DNA from: Streptomyces seoulensis
Lineage (GTDB): Bacteria > Actinomycetota > Actinomycetes > Streptomycetales > Streptomycetaceae
NCBI RefSeq assembly: GCF_022846655.1
Contig: NZ_AP025667.1
Location: forward strand, 218,501-282,500
DNA: 64,000 nucleotides
Reading direction: 5' to 3'
The notes below the pieces were generated by a model. It made no database searches, was not told the origin of the DNA, and saw only the letters and a list, made by a program, of their open reading frames with translations. Of the stretch, positions 47,579 to 59,981 are shown piece by piece (position 1 is the stretch's first letter; every line of letters begins with the position of its first letter). The position numbers and the translations under genes were made by a program.

Positions 47579-48868
47579 CTATGAGCGGTACGGGTTGTAC
47601 CCGGCGTACGGGGGTGCCGGGTGCCCGTACCGCTGCCAGTACGGGACCGGCCTGGGCGGCGGGGCCGTCACACGGGCCGCGTACTCCAGGGCGGGGCGCG
47701 AGGAGTCCCGGCGCTGCCACAGGGCGGCCAGGAGTTCCCGTTCCCGGGCGGCGAAGTCGGTGCCGACGCGGCCGGCCCGGGCGCGGTGGCGCAGCAGGGC
47801 CAGTTCGGTGGCGTCGCTCTCGTAGCGGACCACCGCGCGGGCGGCCGGGCGGCCGCCGAAGAAGCGGCGGGCGTGGTCGCGGGCCAGGCGGCGGGCGCGC
47901 AGCGAACCGAGGGCGAAGGGTTCGGCGGGGCCGAGCCAGCCGGCGTGGACGTAGACGGGCAGTTCCTCACGGGCCACGCGCAGTTCACGCTGCCGCGAGC
48001 GGATCAGCAGCCAGGTCAGCAGCCCGAACGCGGGGACCATGAAGCCGCCGTAGACGACGAGGAAGCCGAACTGGCCGAAGGCGGCCGAGCCGTTCCACAG
48101 GGCGTGCATGCCCATCGCGAGCAGCAGCCCGCCCACCGGGAAGAGCACCCGCAGCACCGGCCGCCGCCTGCGGGGGAGCGCGGCCAGGCCGAAGCCGATG
48201 CCGGTGAGCACGGTGAACAGGGGGTGCGCGAACGGCGACATCACCGCGCGCACGAAGAAGGTCGCGGCGGTCACGGAGACGAGGCCCGTGGTGCCGATGG
48301 ACTGGTCGGTGCCGAAGGCGTTGCCCAGGTAGAGGATGTTCTCGGTGAACGCGAAGCCGGTCGCGGTCACCCCGGCTATCGCCGCGCCGCCGACCGGTCC
48401 GGTGAAGTCCCGTCTGCGGAAGACGAACACCAGCAGTACGGCGGCGGCCTTGGCCGACTCCTCCACCACCGGCGCTATCACCGTCGCGCCGAGCGTGTCC
48501 GCGCCGGAGGGGTCCGCGGTCGCGGTGGCGATCCAGTGGGTGGCGAAGCTGTTGGCGACGATGGCGATCAGCGCCGCCGCGCAGGCCCCCCACGCGAACG
48601 CGAACAGCAGGTTCCGCCAGGGTCCGGGCCGTACCCGGTCCAGCCAGCGGAACGCCGCGGTCAGCCAGGGCACCGGCACCACGGCCAGCCCCAGTCCGAC
48701 GAGGAAGCCCTCCGTGCCGGTCTGCCGGCGCACCAGCGCCAGGATCACGAGCCCCGAGAGCGCCAGCAGCGCGGCCAGCGCCCCGTGACGCACCCACTCC
48801 CGCCGCCACCAGGGCGGCCGGGGTCCGTCGCCGGAGGTGTGGGACGGGTACGGGGAACTGATGGCCAC
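47579..48868 (-). CDS. prsW: PrsW family intramembrane metalloprotease
   Basis: A 429-residue membrane protease that cleaves anti-sigma factors or other membrane proteins in related bacteria. It has about eight hydrophobic segments. The motifs are APVVEESAKAAAVLL (EExxK) near residue 135, GFAFTENILYLG, SPFAHPLFTVLTG, and GMHALWNGSA near residue 245, the likely zinc-binding and catalytic set. The cytoplasmic C-terminal 150 residues (RHRARAGRVGTDFAARERELLAALWQRR) are Arg-rich. GTG 48868 starts MAISSPYPSHTSGD. It lies 59 bases downstream of trmB. Confidence 0.9.
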   Translation of the reverse strand: MAISSPYPSHTSGDGPRPPWWRREWVRHGALAALLALSGLVILALVRRQTGTEGFLVGLGLAVVPVPWLTAAFRWLDRVRPGPWRNLLFAFAWGACAAALIAIVANSFATHWIATATADPSGADTLGATVIAPVVEESAKAAAVLLVFVFRRRDFTGPVGGAAIAGVTATGFAFTENILYLGNAFGTDQSIGTTGLVSVTAATFFVRAVMSPFAHPLFTVLTGIGFGLAALPRRRRPVLRVLFPVGGLLLAMGMHALWNGSAAFGQFGFLVVYGGFMVPAFGLLTWLLIRSRQRELRVAREELPVYVHAGWLGPAEPFALGSLRARRLARDHARRFFGGRPAARAVVRYESDATELALLRHRARAGRVGTDFAARERELLAALWQRRDSSRPALEYAARVTAPPPRPVPYWQRYGHPAPPYAGYNPYRS

Positions 48869-52602: not shown

Positions 52603-53348
52603 GCGCCACCCCTCGACACAGACGGCTGCCCCGCTGGCATAACCACGCGGCATTCGTAAACACAGCGTAGTTCGCCGGATCCCAAGCGTTAAGGGGCATT
52701 GTTCCGGATGGCGTGATTGCGGTCCGTACGGGAGTACGGCCCTGTACGCACCGTGCACGGACTGTCGCGGCGTGCCCCCGCGCGTGTGGCCGTGCGCCTG
52801 TCCGTGCGCTCTACTCCGGCCACCGGGGGAGCGGTTCCATGGCATTGCGTGGGTCGGCCCGCTGTACTTGAGTCCAGTGGGCTGGGGGACGCCGCCACCT
52901 ACATCCCCGCGGGTGGCGGACCGGTCCGGGAGGCGTCGCCCGCCTCCCGGGCCGTGCGCGCTCACCGGACCGCCGTGCGCTCCGCAGGGCCTGTACGGAG
53001 CGTGCTCAAATCCCTTGCCCTGTCGCCAATTTGGCCGAAAACAGCCGCCGTTCCGGTTCCGTCATTCCCGTTCCCACCATGGCACTTGAGGGCGCGAAGG
53101 TGGTTCCAGGGGAGTGAAGCGGGGCGCATTCGCATCGCTCCCGCTGCTCATCCTCCCGAGGCAGCGCGGGAGTTCATCCTGCCCGCCGCGCCCTGTCGTA
53201 TCCCGGCGGCGCGTCGGGTCCTGCCGTGTTTCCTGCTGATTTCCCTCGATCGAAGGCGGCGCCACCACCCTTCCCCGGCGCGTTCTTCATGGCAGCATGG
53301 GTCCGGTTCGTGCGGTGCTCTGGTGGTCCACAGCCTGTGGAGGCGTCG
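52603..53348. promoter_or_regulatory. 746-base gap between the NsdA-like and asparagine-synthetase-like genes
   Basis: No gene is supported here: the only long frames lack codon bias or domain sense. It has repeated GTACGG/CCGTAC-type elements around 52730-52750 (GTCCGTACGGGAGTACGGCC), an inverted repeat at 52928-52950 (GGGAGGC/GCCTCCC), and a possible AT-rich start zone near 53010-53045. A ribosome site TGTGGAGGC at 53338-53345 serves the downstream gene. The unusual length for two developmental genes suggests multiple regulators. Confidence 0.45.
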
Positions 53349-55433
53349 ATGCGGTGGTTGGTGGGTTGGAGCAGCACCGCCGCGCGCGCCCTGGGCGCCG
53401 CAGACTCCGCGGGCGCCACCGGGTACGAGGGCGAGACGCTGCGCCCCGTCGGCTCCCAACTCCTGTGGGGTGACCCCGATCCGCTGTGGGCCGTGGGCGA
53501 CTGGCGCCCCGACGAGGTCCGCGTGGTCCACGCCGACGCGCAGAACCGCATCGCCGTCCTCGGCATCTGCGGCGCCTCCGACGAGGAGCTGCGGCGCGGC
53601 CTGTTCACCGCCCGCGGCGGCGCCCTGCGCCATCTGACCGCCTGGCCCGGCAGCTACACCGCCGTCGTCCAGGCCGGCCGCCGCATCACCGTCTGCGGCG
53701 ACCTCGCCGGCGCCCGCCCGGTCTTCCACGCCCCCTGGGACGGCGGCACCGCCTACGCCACCGCCGCCCTCCCGCTCGCCGACCTCACCGAGGCCAACCT
53801 CGACTTCGGTCATCTCGCCGCCCTCCTCGCCGCCCCCGAGGTCCCGGCCGCGCTGCGCGACACCACCCCCTACGAGGGCGTACGCCGCGTCGCGCCCGGC
53901 CACGCGCTGGTGCTGCGCGCCGGGGCGCGCGAGATCGTCGGCTACGAGCCGGTCGCCTCCCTCGCCGTCGCCGCGCCCCCCGCCGACCCCGACCGCGCGG
54001 TGGACGCCGTACGGGACGCCCTGGTGGAAGCCGTACGAGTCCGGCTCGCAGCGCCCCGGCACGTCCCCGGACTCGACCCCGGCCCGGTGCCCGGCATGGG
54101 CCCGGCCGAACGGCGGGCGGCGCGCGGCATGCCGGTGCCCGGCATCGGCGCCGACCTCTCCGGCGGCCCCGCCTCCGGCACCCTGGCGCTGCTCGCCGCA
54201 GGGCTGCCCGGCAGACCCGGCACCCTTCTCGGGCACGGCACCGGCGCGGGCGAGCGACTGCTCGCCGTCACCTTCAACGACCTCGCCGTCGGCGGCCGCG
54301 AGGCCGAGGTGGAACGCGCGGGCGCCCTCGCGGCCAACCCGCGCCTGCACCACGTGGTGGTCACCGGCGCCGAGGACACGCTGCCCTACGCCGACCTCGA
54401 AGGACCCCTCACCGACGAGCCCGGCCCCTCCCTGGTCACCGCTGCCCGGCACCGCGCCCGGCTCGCGGCGGGCAGCGCCGACCACTTCACCGGCCACGGC
54501 GCCCGCCAGGTACTGGACGCCCACCCCGCCCGCCTGGCCGACCTGCTGCTGGACCGTCAGCGGCGCCATCTGGTCCGCCCGGTCGCCGCCCTCACCCGCG
54601 CCGACGGCTCGGTCCTGGTCCCCGCGCGCGTGTACGGCGCCGCCCGGCGACTGTCCCGTACCCCGTACCGCACCGGGCTCGAGGCGCTGGCCGAGCGGCT
54701 GATGCGGCGCCGGTTCGACGAGCCCAAGGGGCCGGTCGGCGCCTCGCTCGCCGCGCTGACCTGGGCGAGACCCGGACCGGCCGCCCGGTGGCTCACGGGG
54801 GAAGCACTGGCCGAAGTATCGGTTCTGCTCCAGACCGGCGCCGACCGGGCGGCCGGCGGCCCCGGACAGAGACCCGGCGAGTTCCGCGCCCGTACCGTCC
54901 TCGCCCGGCACGCGGCCGACCTCCGCGTCCTCGAACAGGCAGCCGAGGTCCGCTCCCAGCGGCTGCACGCCCCCTTCCTCGACAACCAGGTCGTCCGCGC
55001 CTGCCGCGACCTCCCCGAGGCGCTGCGCGTCCGACCCGGCGCCCGCGCCGCCGTACTGCGCACGGTGCTGGAGGGCGCCGGGGTCACCGACCTCCCGCCC
55101 GGCTGGGGCACCCCGTCCCACGCCTCCTCGGCCGCAGCGGCGAGAGCCGGGCTGCGCCTGGCCGCCGACTCCCTGGTCGACCTCTTCGACACCCCGCTGC
55201 TCGCCGACGCCGGCCTGGTCGAGGCCCGCGTGGTCCGCAAGGCCGTCCGGGAGGCCGCGGCCGGCGAACCCCTCCCGCTGGACGGCCTGGCCGACCTCGT
55301 CTCCCTGGAACTCTGGCTCGGCCGCCTCCTGGCCCGCCGCGGCACCTGCTGGACCGGCACCCCGGCCCGCGCCCGCGCCGTCCCGGCGGGCATCGCCCCG
55401 CAGCGGGGGGCCCTGCGGGCGGGCAGGCCCTAA
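53349..55433 (+). CDS. Asparagine-synthetase-like protein with altered active sites
   Basis: A 694-residue protein with the AsnB two-domain layout, but degraded at both key points. It begins MRWLVGWSSTAARALG, so the Cys2 nucleophile of class II glutaminases is absent. In the synthetase half the PP-loop SGGxDS reads SGGPASG at residues 271-277, so the Asp and second Ser are lost. The later RSQRLHAPFLDNQVVRACRDLPEALRV section is kept. An inserted Pro/Gly-rich section (residues 237-266) precedes the loop. Candidates are lasso-type amide former, unknown amide ligase, or pseudo-enzyme. The start ATG 53349 follows GGAGG by 5. The gene is convergent with the sigma factor gene, 10 bases apart. Confidence 0.82.
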   Translation: MRWLVGWSSTAARALGAADSAGATGYEGETLRPVGSQLLWGDPDPLWAVGDWRPDEVRVVHADAQNRIAVLGICGASDEELRRGLFTARGGALRHLTAWPGSYTAVVQAGRRITVCGDLAGARPVFHAPWDGGTAYATAALPLADLTEANLDFGHLAALLAAPEVPAALRDTTPYEGVRRVAPGHALVLRAGAREIVGYEPVASLAVAAPPADPDRAVDAVRDALVEAVRVRLAAPRHVPGLDPGPVPGMGPAERRAARGMPVPGIGADLSGGPASGTLALLAAGLPGRPGTLLGHGTGAGERLLAVTFNDLAVGGREAEVERAGALAANPRLHHVVVTGAEDTLPYADLEGPLTDEPGPSLVTAARHRARLAAGSADHFTGHGARQVLDAHPARLADLLLDRQRRHLVRPVAALTRADGSVLVPARVYGAARRLSRTPYRTGLEALAERLMRRRFDEPKGPVGASLAALTWARPGPAARWLTGEALAEVSVLLQTGADRAAGGPGQRPGEFRARTVLARHAADLRVLEQAAEVRSQRLHAPFLDNQVVRACRDLPEALRVRPGARAAVLRTVLEGAGVTDLPPGWGTPSHASSAAAARAGLRLAADSLVDLFDTPLLADAGLVEARVVRKAVREAAAGEPLPLDGLADLVSLELWLGRLLARRGTCWTGTPARARAVPAGIAPQRGALRAGRP

Positions 55434-55443
55434 CGCCGCCGCC

Positions 55444-57378
55444 CTAAGCGCAGGAGAAGCGGGACCTCGCCCAGTCCGCCAGGGCCGCCTGGTCGAAGGC
55501 CCCGCCCCTGGACTCCGCCACCAGCCGCACCGTCTTCCGGCCGGTCAGGTTCACATGGACCGGGACCGCCGGGTCGCCGCCCGAGACGGTGCCGGACTGC
55601 CAGAGCCGCGCACCGTCCCCGTACACCGCGAAGGCGACCTTGCCGAGGCCCAGCGTCATGTCGTCCACGCCGACCGACGCGTCGTAGGCGGTGCACTCGC
55701 GGTTGAGGTCGACGGTCACGGAGGAGTCCCCGTGCACCGTGACACCGGTGGAGTAGCGCTCGCCGCCGATCGACATGCCGTAGCGCTGCCACACCCAACT
55801 GCTCTCGCCGAGCCGCACCTCCGGGTCGCTGCCGTCACCCAGCACGTCGTAGCTCAGCTCGCTCATATCGTAGACCTCGGGAGCGGGCGGAGGCGGCGGC
55901 GGAGGGGTGGGGGTCGGAGTGGGGGTCGGCTTCGGCTTCGGGGGTGCCGGGGTGGGCGTCGGGGTGGGAGTGGGTGCCGGTTTCGGGGGCGGGGTGGGCT
56001 TGGGCGTCGGCTTCGGCGTGGGCTTCGGCTCGGGCGCCGGCTTCTCCGCCGGGGCGGCGGGGGCGGGCGGGGCGGCCGGGGGCGCGGGCTCGGGCTTCCG
56101 CCCGGACGGCGGGGGCTCGGGCGCCGGGGTCTGCCGGATCACCGGCGCGGACGGCGACGGCTCGGCGATCTCCTTGGCGGGCCGGCTGTCGTTCACCAGC
56201 GCCAGCGCGACGACCGCCGCGGCCACCGCCACCACACCCGTGGCGATCCCCGCCTTCACGGGCGCGCCCAGCCCCTCCGAGGCCGCGCCACCGCCCGCCG
56301 CGCCGCCCGTGGACCCGGTCGCGGCAGCGGCGGCACCCGCCGCGCCCACGCCCGCGCCACCGGCGATGACACCGAGCGCCTTGGCGTACCCGGCGGCGCC
56401 GAACCAGCCGATGACCGCGATCGGGACGACGGCCGGAATCCCGCCGGCCACCTCCTCGATCTGGGCGGCCGCCAGACGGCACTTGGCGCACTCCTCCAGG
56501 TGCTTGCGCAGCCCGCGCTCGGCCCGGACACGCAGCTTGCGACGCGCGTAGCCACCGAGCTGGTCGGCGTAGCGCGCGCACTCCTCGTCGTTCACCAGCG
56601 TCGCGCTGACGTGCGCCTGGAGGTACGCCTGCTTCAGCCCCTCACGGGCCCGACTTGCCAGCACGCGCGTGCCGTTGGCGTCGAGCCCGAACAGCACGGC
56701 CACCTCGCTGGGCGACTCGTCCTCCACCTCGGTGTGCCAGAGCACGGCCTGCCAGCGCTCGGGCAGCGAGCGGAACGCCTGCATGGCCAGGGTCTGTTCG
56801 GCCTCGTGCATCGCGCGCACGTCGGCACCCAGATCGGCGCCGAAGGCTCCCAGGGACCCGGTGTCGTCGGCCACCTCGGCGGCCCGGGACGCCGCCTGCG
56901 CGAACACCGCGAAGTCGTCCACGAGATGCTCGCGCTTGGCGGACTGCGTCCAGTGCGCGGCGACCCGGCGCACCGAGGTCAGCAGATAGGCGCGCACCGC
57001 GTACTCGGGACCCGAACCGCCGCGCACCGCCTGGAGCATGCGCGCGAAGACCTCGGCCGTCAGGTCGTCGGCGGTGTGCCCGTCCCGGCAGCAGGTACGC
57101 GCGTAGCGTCGCACCGCGTCCGCGTGGCGCCGGTACAACTCCTCGTACGCCGAGTCGTCCCCGGCGCGCATCCGCTCGATCAACTCGCCGTCGGCCGGAG
57201 CCGCGTCACGCGGGGGCGGAAGGACGCTGCCCTCGCGCTGGGCCGGCAGGCTCCTCGCGGTCCGGTCCCCGCCCGAGGCGGCCCGGCCGCCCTGGCTCGG
57301 CACCTGAGGCGAGGTCAGTTCCCCGGCCTCCGCGTCACCACCGTCGGCGCGCGCGCCGTCCCACCCGTCAACGCCCAT
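55444..57378 (-). CDS. ECF-type sigma factor fused to zinc-finger, membrane segment and NPCBM domain
   Basis: A 644-residue single chain. Residues 1-64 are disordered. Residues 65-130 are sigma region 2 (LIERMRAGDDSAYEELYRRHADAVRRYARTCC), and 194-255 are region 4 (LAMQAFRSLPERWQAVLWHTEVEDESPSEVAVLFGLDANGTRVLASRAREGLKQAY). Residues 262-310 hold an anti-sigma-like zinc motif, RGLRKHLEECAKC (HxxxCxxC). A hydrophobic segment follows at 376-396 (GIATGVVAVAAAVVALALV), then a Pro/Thr/Lys linker to residue 500, and a C-terminal NPCBM-type carbohydrate-binding domain (503-644; SYDVLGDGSDPEVRLGESSWVWQRYGMSIGGERYSTGVTVHGDSS). The sigma part is cytoplasmic and the NPCBM part outside. The stop is 10 bases from the facing asparagine-synthetase-like gene. 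Confidence 0.88.
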   Translation of the reverse strand: MGVDGWDGARADGGDAEAGELTSPQVPSQGGRAASGGDRTARSLPAQREGSVLPPPRDAAPADGELIERMRAGDDSAYEELYRRHADAVRRYARTCCRDGHTADDLTAEVFARMLQAVRGGSGPEYAVRAYLLTSVRRVAAHWTQSAKREHLVDDFAVFAQAASRAAEVADDTGSLGAFGADLGADVRAMHEAEQTLAMQAFRSLPERWQAVLWHTEVEDESPSEVAVLFGLDANGTRVLASRAREGLKQAYLQAHVSATLVNDEECARYADQLGGYARRKLRVRAERGLRKHLEECAKCRLAAAQIEEVAGGIPAVVPIAVIGWFGAAGYAKALGVIAGGAGVGAAGAAAAATGSTGGAAGGGAASEGLGAPVKAGIATGVVAVAAAVVALALVNDSRPAKEIAEPSPSAPVIRQTPAPEPPPSGRKPEPAPPAAPPAPAAPAEKPAPEPKPTPKPTPKPTPPPKPAPTPTPTPTPAPPKPKPTPTPTPTPPPPPPPAPEVYDMSELSYDVLGDGSDPEVRLGESSWVWQRYGMSIGGERYSTGVTVHGDSSVTVDLNRECTAYDASVGVDDMTLGLGKVAFAVYGDGARLWQSGTVSGGDPAVPVHVNLTGRKTVRLVAESRGGAFDQAALADWARSRFSCA

Positions 57379-57565
57379 CGCGTAAAGCCCCCGACACCGG
57401 CACAGCCCAATCCTTTACGGGCTCAGCGTGCCATACCCACTTTCGCCGCCGGTCCGCTCGTCGGACCCGTCACTCATCCGGGCGGAAGTTTCACCATCCG
57501 CTCGCAACAGATCCGAACAAGCGGGCCTCGTACCGGCGTTCAGCGTGCCGAGGGCCGCGCGCGCA

Positions 57566-58291
57566 CTACGCGGGCCGGGACCGCAGCCCCTCCAGCAGGA
57601 TGTCCAGCAGCCGGGTGGAGGCGGCCGCCTGCTGTGCCGCGTCGGGCAGCGAGGGAGCCGCCGTGGCGATCACCAGCAGCACGTCGGAGACGGACACGTC
57701 GGCCCGCAGCTCCCCGGCCGCACGGGCCCGCTCCACCAGTTGTCCGACCACGTCCAGCAGCGCCGCCGTACCGACCTCGCCGCCCGCGCGGTCCCCGTCC
57801 ACCAGCCGCAGCTCCCCGGCACCGGCCTGGGACCGCTGCTGCGGCACCCGCGCCTCCTCGGCCACCGTGCCGGCACCGTCTTCCGCGACCCCCACCCGCA
57901 GCACCTGCGGCGGCAGCAGCCGGCCCGCGCCGGACGCCACCGAGGTGCGCAGGAAGCGGGACAGGGCCGACCAGGGCTCGTCCTCCTGCCCGAGCGCGGC
58001 CCGCGCCTGCTCGGTCAGCCGCGCGGTCTCCTCCTCGGCGATCCGCCGCACCAGCACGTCCTTGCTGGGAAAGCGCCGGTACACCGTGCCGACCCCGACC
58101 CGCGCCCGCCGCGCCACGTCCTCCATCGGCGCGCCGTACCCCAGCTCGCCGAACACCTCACGCGCCGCCCTCAGCACGTGCTCCAGATTGCGCTGCGCGT
58201 CCACCCGCAGCGGCGCCGGACGAGAACCGCCCGACCGTCCGCCGCCGGACGCGAGAGCCGCCGTCGACCAGTGCGTGTCCTGAACATGCAT
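57566..58291 (-). CDS. TetR-family transcriptional regulator
   Basis: A 241-residue regulator with an N-terminal DNA-binding domain (residues 31-78: NLEHVLRAAREVFGELGYGAPMEDVARRARVGVGTVYRRFPSKDVLVRRI) and a helical ligand domain with an inserted Gly/Arg-rich loop (LRVGVAEDGAGTVAEEARVPQQRSQAGAGELRL). The N-terminal 30 residues are a flexible tail. ATG 58291 follows GGGGGAACAC. It lies divergent from the NADH dehydrogenase gene (310 bases away), which is a likely target. The ligand is unknown. Confidence 0.9.
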   Translation of the reverse strand: MHVQDTHWSTAALASGGGRSGGSRPAPLRVDAQRNLEHVLRAAREVFGELGYGAPMEDVARRARVGVGTVYRRFPSKDVLVRRIAEEETARLTEQARAALGQEDEPWSALSRFLRTSVASGAGRLLPPQVLRVGVAEDGAGTVAEEARVPQQRSQAGAGELRLVDGDRAGGEVGTAALLDVVGQLVERARAAGELRADVSVSDVLLVIATAAPSLPDAAQQAAASTRLLDILLEGLRSRPA

Positions 58292-58601
58292 GTGTTCCCC
58301 CGGTAATGACGTCTCCCCCCGGAGACTCTCCCCGCCACTGATTCCGGAGCGCGCGGAAAACTGGCGCCGGTCCCTGAGCGGGCCCGCACCCGGCGACCCC
58401 CTCGACGACCCTCCCGCACCCCGTCGACACACGAACATAGTTGAGCGGGAGTCAATTCAGAAGGGGTAGGTTCCGCACAGTGCGCCCCTCGATCGGAGTA
58501 CGAGCCATTTATGTCCGGATTCCGTGCCCCCGCGCATCCGGCCGCCGGTCACACAAATTGCCGAGGCTGTGGACAAACACCAGCGCCGGGTGCGTCATGG
58601 G
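58292..58601. promoter_or_regulatory. Intergenic control region between TetR and NADH dehydrogenase
   Basis: About 310 bases, no gene supported. AT-rich patch 58432-58470 (AACATAGTTGAGCGGGAGTCAATTCAGAAGGGGTAGG) could hold promoters for both directions. In-frame GTG codons at 58524 and 58569 may start the dehydrogenase earlier. Confidence 0.4.
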
Positions 58602-59981
58602 ATGGTGAAGGAACGCGCGCGCATTCTGGTCGTCGGCGGGGGACACGTCGGCATGTACACCGCCCTGCGTCTCCAGCGGAAACTGAAACGGCAGGTCAGA
58701 CGGGGTGACGTCGAGATCATCCTGGTCAGCCCCGACCCCTATATGACCTACCAGCCGTTCCTCCCCGAGGCGGCCGCCGGCTCGCTCTCCCCGCGCCATG
58801 TCGTCGTCCCCCTGCGCCGCGTCCTGCCCGGGTGCCGCGTCGTCATCGGCGAGGTCACCGCCGTCGACCACGCCGTACGCACCGCGGCCGTCACCACCCT
58901 CGCCACCGAACAGCAGGGCCGCGCCGCCGAGCTCCTCCACTACGACGAACTCGTCCTCGCCCCCGGCTCCGTCTCCCGCACCCTGCCGGTGCCGGGCCTC
59001 GCCGAGCACGGCATCGGGTTCAAGACCGTCGAGGAGGCCATCGGGCTGCGCAACCACGTCATCGAACAGATGGACATCGCCTCCTCCACCCGCGACCCCG
59101 CCCTGCGCGACGCCGCCCTCACCTTCGTCTTCGTCGGCGGCGGCTACGCCGGGGTCGAGGCCCTCGGCGAGCTGGAGGACATGGCCCGCTACGCCGCCCG
59201 CTACTACCCCAACCTCCGCCCCGAGGACATGAAGTGGGTCCTGGTGGAGGCCACCGACCGGGTCCTGCCCGAGGTCGGCCCCGAACTGGGCCGCCACACC
59301 GTCACCCAGTTGCGCCGCCGCAACATCCAGGTGCTGCTGAACACCCGCCTCGACTCCTGCGCCGACCGTGTCGCCGTACTCAGCGACGGCCGCCGGTTCC
59401 CCACCCGCACCGTCGTCTGGACCGCCGGCGTCAAACCCCACCCGCTGCTCGCCGCCACCGACCTGCCCCTCGACCCGCGGGGCCGGCTGCGCTGCACCGC
59501 CCAGCTCGCCGTCGAGGGCACCGAGCACGCCTGGGCCGCGGGCGACGCCGCCGCCGTACCCGACGTCACCGCCACCGCACCCGGCGCCACCACCGCGCCC
59601 AACGCCCAGCACGCCCTGCGCCAGGCCAGGGTCGTCGGCGACAACATCGTGCACACCCTGCGCGGCGAGCCCCTGCGCACCTACTCCCACCGGCAGCTCG
59701 GCTCGGTCGCCTCCCTCGGCCTGCACAAGGGCGTCGCCCAGGTGTACGGGCGCAGGCTCAAGGGCCGCCCCGCCTGGCTCCTCCACCGCGCCTACCACCT
59801 CAGCCGCGTGCCCACCTTCAACCGCAAGGCCCGCGTGCTCGCCGAATGGACCCTCGCCGGACTCTTCAAACGGGAGATCGTCTCCCTCGGCTCACTCGAA
59901 CACCCGCGGGCGGAGTTCGAACTCGCGGCCGGTGGAAAACCCCCACGGCGGCACCCGGACCCCCCGAAGGGGTCGTCCTGA
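58602..59981 (+). CDS. Type II NADH dehydrogenase (FAD-dependent pyridine nucleotide oxidoreductase)
   Basis: A 459-residue enzyme that passes electrons from NADH to menaquinone without proton pumping. It starts VKERARILVVGGGHVGMYTALRLQRKL (FAD-binding), has SPDPYMTYQPFLPEAAAGSLSPRHVVVPLR, the NAD-binding TFVFVGGGYAGVEALGELEDMARYAARYY near residue 170, and VVWTAGVKPHPLLAATDLPLDPRGRLR plus HAWAAGDAAAVPD. The C-terminal amphipathic helix region (KARVLAEWTLAGLFKREIVSLGSLEHPRAEFELAAG) matches the membrane-binding end of the family. ATG 58602 is chosen because the family N-terminus begins there; GTG 58569 and GTG 58524 are in frame, none with a good ribosome site. It lies divergent from the TetR gene and close to the phosphatase gene. 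Confidence 0.9.
   Translation: MVKERARILVVGGGHVGMYTALRLQRKLKRQVRRGDVEIILVSPDPYMTYQPFLPEAAAGSLSPRHVVVPLRRVLPGCRVVIGEVTAVDHAVRTAAVTTLATEQQGRAAELLHYDELVLAPGSVSRTLPVPGLAEHGIGFKTVEEAIGLRNHVIEQMDIASSTRDPALRDAALTFVFVGGGYAGVEALGELEDMARYAARYYPNLRPEDMKWVLVEATDRVLPEVGPELGRHTVTQLRRRNIQVLLNTRLDSCADRVAVLSDGRRFPTRTVVWTAGVKPHPLLAATDLPLDPRGRLRCTAQLAVEGTEHAWAAGDAAAVPDVTATAPGATTAPNAQHALRQARVVGDNIVHTLRGEPLRTYSHRQLGSVASLGLHKGVAQVYGRRLKGRPAWLLHRAYHLSRVPTFNRKARVLAEWTLAGLFKREIVSLGSLEHPRAEFELAAGGKPPRRHPDPPKGSS

Follow-up and report, generated by a model that had tools for sequence, protein, structure and literature searches.

A one-chain ECF52 sigma factor with zinc, membrane and CBM51 modules in Streptomyces seoulensis, taken as the orthologue of SCO4117, and its lectin-headed relatives

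How does a sigma factor work when it shares one polypeptide with a zinc-type anti-sigma motif, a membrane anchor and a sugar-binding domain? The question is raised by a gene in a 64,000-nucleotide stretch of the Streptomyces seoulensis genome (the window). A previous, sequence-only reading of the window had singled out this architecture as unusual. It is in fact known: group ECF52 is described as a sigma factor followed by a zinc finger, a membrane region, a Pro-rich extension and a carbohydrate-binding domain, and its first characterised member, SCO4117, was studied in 2018 (excerpts of PMC5826349). The window protein has a sigma domain, a zinc finger, at least one transmembrane helix and a Pro-rich end with a carbohydrate-binding module (CBM), and thus repeats the described plan; what is gained is a well-supported orthologue. 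The earlier literature on ECF groups is taken here via excerpts of PMC5826349, PMC8999054 and PMC10766802; the SCO4117 paper is cited by PMC6295645 and PMC10771440.

Modules, neighbourhood and conservation

The frame begins with ATG and runs through 644 codons without an internal stop, inside a single 6.54 Mb contig of a genome with 99.96% completeness. Its modules and the upstream genes are as follows.

55444..57378 (−): whole gene, ECF52 sigma/anti-sigma/CBM51 fusion of 644 aa, presumptive orthologue of SCO4117
56932..57138 (−): sigma region 2, residues 81–149; Pfam Sigma70_r2, E 5e-12
56641..56784 (−): sigma region 4, residues 199–246; Pfam Sigma70_r4_2, E 3e-4, below cut-off
56479..56580 (−): zinc anti-sigma motif C267/H293/C297/C300; ligand conservation
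56374..56445 (−): conserved hydrophobic stretch, residues 312–335; read as probable anti-sigma helix 4
56191..56253 (−): transmembrane helix, residues 376–396; hydropathy (KD 2.42–2.55) and model helix
55879..56187 (−): Pro-rich stalk, residues 398–500; from the sequence
55447..55872 (−): NPCBM/CBM51 sugar-binding domain, residues 503–644; Cys562 and Cys643 conserved
57566..58285 (−): upstream TetR-family gene, taken as atrA (SCO4118); Pfam TetR_N, start chosen
58524..59981 (+): oxidoreductase gene in divergent orientation, presumed counterpart of the NADH dehydrogenase gene SCO4119; family by sequence reading

The order along the chain is therefore sigma regions 2 and 4, CHCC zinc motif, membrane helix, Pro-rich stalk and NPCBM/CBM51 domain. 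Pfam, NCBIfam, hydropathy and a structure model together confirm that sigma factor, anti-sigma part, anchor and sugar binder occupy one chain, as had been proposed, and the residue coordinates and domain calls given then are correct. The NCBIfam sigma70-ECF model spans residues 77–251 above its cut-off (E 2.4e-16); region 4 is also supported by the structure model, in which the blocks of region 2 mostly have pLDDT values of 81–97. The Pfam zf-HC2 match (residues 267–301, E 0.019) is below cut-off. The HxxxCxxC pattern noticed earlier is indeed of the anti-sigma type but incomplete; the full ligand set is C267-x25-H293-x3-C297-x2-C300. The C-terminal domain belongs to the CBM51/NPCBM family by both profile (Pfam NPCBM, residues 533–641, E 7.6e-30) and fold. 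Known CBM51 domains, mostly from Clostridium perfringens and Streptococcus pneumoniae, share 14–24% identity with it; they sit on enzymes, whereas this one is carried by a sigma factor chain. The full-chain model (pTM 0.50) does not show how the zinc domain sits relative to the sigma domain.

The S. coelicolor gene SCO4117 has atrA (SCO4118) upstream of it (PMC5826349), and atrA is in turn divergent from SCO4119, an NADH dehydrogenase gene (PMC3511530). The same arrangement is found in the window, and a same-strand TetR gene with a divergent oxidoreductase stands upstream in 79 of 80 related loci; the exceptional one (L035) starts 187 bases before the match. Because domain order and neighbourhood agree, the window gene is taken as the orthologue of SCO4117, within ECF52, and the TetR-family gene as presumptive atrA. 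The comparison with SCO4117, made by description and neighbourhood, revealed no difference in plan. In S. avermitilis, the counterparts of SCO4117 and atrA are reported to stand apart (PMC5826349). On its other side, the sigma gene is adjoined by a convergent asparagine-synthase-like gene (Pfam; 53271–55433, +). This is present in 62 of the 80 loci, invariably on the opposite strand, and 16 of the others end within the sigma gene.

The 80 loci are the best of 312 relatives found in 343 candidate stretches in a scan of genome contigs; 79 are named Streptomyces and one ‘Actinobacteria bacterium’. ECF52 has been described as exclusive to Actinobacteria (PMC5826349). Sigma domain and CBM share one open frame in 64 of the 80. 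The other 16 contigs stop before the frame has reached the CBM, a possible effect of assembly breaks at the Pro-rich repeats. That the fusion might be a sequencing artefact or a chance joining of two genes is suggested by S. clavuligerus, annotated as two frames with a stop between the halves, where the authors themselves suspect a sequencing error (PMC5826349). With no internal break in any of the 80 loci, this explanation has next to no probability. The intact frame in all 64 loci that are readable to the end adds a detail to the published plan.

None of the four zinc ligands varies across the 64 complete orthologues; Cys562 is likewise invariant and Cys643 is present in 63. Mean identity to the window protein across these orthologues is highest in the sigma domain (0.91 for residues 65–149, 0.95 for 196–255), followed by the zinc part (262–305, 0.85), the hydrophobic stretch (312–345, 0.83), the membrane segment (374–396, 0.78), the CBM (506–643, 0.69) and the stalk (398–500, 0.50). 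Two further alignments (A1, A2) hold 38 and 103 relatives chosen from 120 and 360 listed. Wider comparisons below use protein lists made up of the best 120 of 2792 hits (NPCBM group), 1031 hits (L090, intact ricin group) and 1357 hits (L005 family), so that their counts are biased towards close relatives of each query.

Membrane topology and the upstream region

The membrane calls are based on hydropathy and the structure model. Hydropathy peaks at residues 376–394 (KD 2.42) and 377–395 (2.55), and the model has a helix at residues 379–398. A weaker hydrophobic stretch at about 310–353 (KD 1.82 and 1.61), absent from the earlier description, raises the possibility of a second span. The model joins residues 298–334 with the zinc helix as one helix, over which block pLDDT declines from 88 to 53, and the stretch at 312–335 also occurs in other lectin groups. 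Most probably it forms helix 4 of the anti-sigma fold and does not span the membrane, the second detail added to the known plan; with such an assignment the sugar-binding end would stay outside.

A two-span topology, with the C-terminus inside, would be at odds with that single modelled helix, with the single strong segment in 105 of 119 and 118 of 120 members of related groups, and with the two conserved cysteines in the CBM, and is considered less likely. Opposed to a single span is the NPCBM group itself, in which the same hydropathy threshold yields two or three segments in 112 of 120 proteins (best 120 of 2792). Exactly two cysteines occur in the last 150 residues of all 120 of these listed relatives, which fits a disulphide in the oxidising space outside. 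According to the positive-inside rule, an Arg/Lys-rich flank of a membrane helix faces the cytoplasm. Such a stretch precedes the helix in P0241 and P0303, two proteins of a sister group with a decayed sigma domain (see below), which places their C-termini outside; it is missing from the two examples of the intact ricin group that were looked at.

Upstream, one difference from SCO4117 was found. The published putative SCO4117 motif, CSGYN-17-SRHA, is missing from the 260 bp before the window gene. Among 62 sequences (the window and 61 loci; 19 of the 80 loci, without upstream sequence by the start pattern, were left out) it occurs in 19 or 9, depending on which of two spacings is used. Blocks within window positions 57379–57480, one extending to the ATG, are conserved in most of the 61 loci; none of these blocks matches the published motif.

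Release, tethered action and candidate proteases

Published work on SCO4117 frames the question of how the sigma domain is switched. Knockout delays aerial growth and sporulation; a mutant with the sigma domain alone sporulates and produces antibiotic late, yet sporulates faster than the knockout, and its own transcript is up 1.3-fold (PMC5826349). A proposal cited there has the sugar module set off either a proteolytic cascade or a conformational change that frees the sigma factor. Release and tethered action, the two options put forward from the sequence, are thus the right ones, and both are already in print. ECF48, ECF52 and ECF53 have been grouped with IutY of Pseudomonas putida (ECF243) under proteolytic activation (PMC8999054). 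ECF48 and ECF53 are separate groups that likewise combine a sigma factor with C-terminal zinc and membrane extensions. IutY likewise holds sigma and anti-sigma in one chain and is freed by cleavage by Prc and RseP, the only sigma/anti-sigma fusion whose activation by proteolysis has been worked out experimentally in that source; it serves iron-siderophore signalling, and the available part of its description mentions no sugar-binding module (PMC8999054).

We give somewhat better than even weight to a locked chain from which sigma is released by proteolysis upon glycan binding; the ligand, the intramolecular lock, the protease and the release step are what we infer. In the resting state, the zinc anti-sigma part in the cytoplasm would be folded against sigma regions 2 and 4 of its own chain, with the single helix keeping the chain in the membrane and CBM51 held outside on the Pro-rich stalk. 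When CBM51 binds a glycan, of the wall or extracellular, the signal would pass along the stalk and lead to proteolysis outside or within the membrane, after which the anti-sigma part would be trimmed. The freed sigma domain would then direct RNA polymerase to genes for development and antibiotic production. Zinc ligands fixed in every complete orthologue are as expected for a working lock. Release in its simplest form, with the extension acting purely as an inhibitor, predicts early or excess activity of the sigma domain alone; among published results, the delay of the sigma-only mutant weighs most heavily against it. The missing upstream motif and the several candidate membrane segments of the NPCBM group also count against the proposed reading.

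That same mutant, less than fully active in S. coelicolor (PMC5826349), suggests that the active form may depend on the extension. The sigma domain might accordingly work within the membrane-bound chain, sugar binding loosening the zinc lock without a cut. The 26-residue Gly/Ala-rich stretch (346–371) that separates lock from anchor would suit such an arrangement, and conformational change is the alternative named in print (PMC5826349); the one worked-out precedent, IutY, is nevertheless cut (PMC8999054), and we rank the uncut switch second, well below release. More doubtful still is the suggestion that the chief role of the extension is to position the sigma factor, for instance where the wall grows, or to make it more stable, with control left to a different mechanism, of which Ser/Thr phosphorylation would be one. 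Phosphorylation of SCO4117 has been reported at Ser15 and Thr231, and the delay of the sigma-only mutant would also fit (PMC5826349); the invariance of the zinc ligands in 64 of 64 orthologues speaks against it.

A PrsW-family gene had been pointed out as a possible partner.

about 47579–48841 (−): PrsW; PF13367, E 3.4e-54; start chosen

It encodes the only PrsW-family intramembrane protease in the genome. The gap to the sigma gene is 6.6 kb (about 8.5 kb from start to start) and contains the asparagine-synthase-like gene (Pfam) as well as an HTH gene, an oxidoreductase and a trmB-like gene (sequence reading), the last adjoining PrsW. PrsW was detected in 9 of the 80 loci, each time in this position; the flanks are about 8 kb, and most loci end before reaching it. 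With other genes in between, the kept place looks like common gene order rather than operon structure. The genome also has three M50 site-2 protease genes (five matches in three places), which are rival candidates for the role. Sole-member status and shared gene order are what favours PrsW, and the proposed link is not supported.

Lectin-headed relatives with intact and decayed sigma domains

A search of the same genome with the window protein gave 11 matches, three of which are further chains of the same plan.

L002:814-2724 (−), near 3.668 Mb: paralogue with ricin-B lectin; 33% identity, tblastn E 4e-26
L003:1195-2760 (−), near 4.482 Mb: paralogue with CBM2; 27% identity, tblastn E 6e-20
L005:1033-2766 (−), near 3.659 Mb: paralogue with ricin-B lectin; 31% identity, tblastn E 4e-19

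All three keep the zinc pattern and the membrane helix, and none has a Pfam Sigma70_r2 match at E 0.05. L002 gives weak sigma matches, Pfam region 4 among them, all below cut-offs. Family-level counts of replaced residues were made for L005; L002 and L003 were judged by Pfam, NCBIfam and tblastn.

Among the best 120 of 1357 L005 relatives, the zinc pattern is kept in all 120 and the sigma profile PF04542 is listed for none. A profile built from intact sigma domains (149 sequences, 30 of the 120 NPCBM proteins and 119 of the intact ricin group) does match all 120, with E values, calculated for this small set, from 1e-26 to 1.2e-20, and the L005 family aligns with intact sigma at a profile–profile probability of 99.4. 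One protein of the intact ricin group (P0153, 1 of 120) is without the zinc pattern and was excluded, leaving 119 for the later counts; the consensus used in comparing zinc patterns comes from samples of 20, 24 and 24 out of 120 each.

The replacements in these 120 are consistent: Asp105 to Met (117), Glu109 to Thr or Ala (117), Tyr131 to Arg (120), Arg138 to Asp (118), Trp209 to Glu or Ala (113) and Arg243 mostly to Gln (95). Phe111, Trp143 and Trp214 are kept in all 120. The replaced positions, which we take to be polymerase or DNA contacts, are fixed or nearly fixed in the intact groups; position 138 in the intact ricin group is Arg in 67 and His in 44 of 119 (best 120 of 1031, P0153 left out). 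Among the listed relatives of L005, those with names are annotated as RICIN-domain or ricin-lectin protein, hydrolase or hypothetical.

A tentative reading, to which we give a little under even weight, groups these proteins into a lectin-headed set in which the window protein is competent as a sigma factor and its three paralogues are pseudo-sigma receptors, serving as surface sugar sensors. Such proteins would not start transcription; binding or titration of the sigma/anti-sigma machinery is a possible role, as is signalling by another route. This set was not found in the literature searched and may be described elsewhere. If real, it would give Streptomyces a family of sugar receptors made in one piece, their former transcription-factor domain now serving as a signalling scaffold, and would supply natural separation-of-function variants with which to ask what switches ECF52 proteins.

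Relatives are also encoded on plasmids.

L090:2977-4638 (+), plasmid NZ_CP108010.1: intact sigma with ricin-B lectin; Pfam
L089:2953-4467 (+), Arthrobacter plasmid NZ_AP024649.1: sigma, zinc pattern and Pro-rich part; about 40% identity over residues 62–324

PF04542 is found in all of the best 120 of 1031 proteins related to L090, one of them identical to the query, and 8 of the 120 are without a ricin domain. An intact sigma domain is thus seen whichever of the two lectins the chain bears, and the type of lectin does not by itself predict sigma decay. Partial plasmid matches come from 44 records, other phyla among them, and none covers 80% of the query. L089 carries no annotation in the record table. 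The plasmid bearing L090 is typed as conjugative, and L090 adjoins a gene for a sortase-dependent surface protein.
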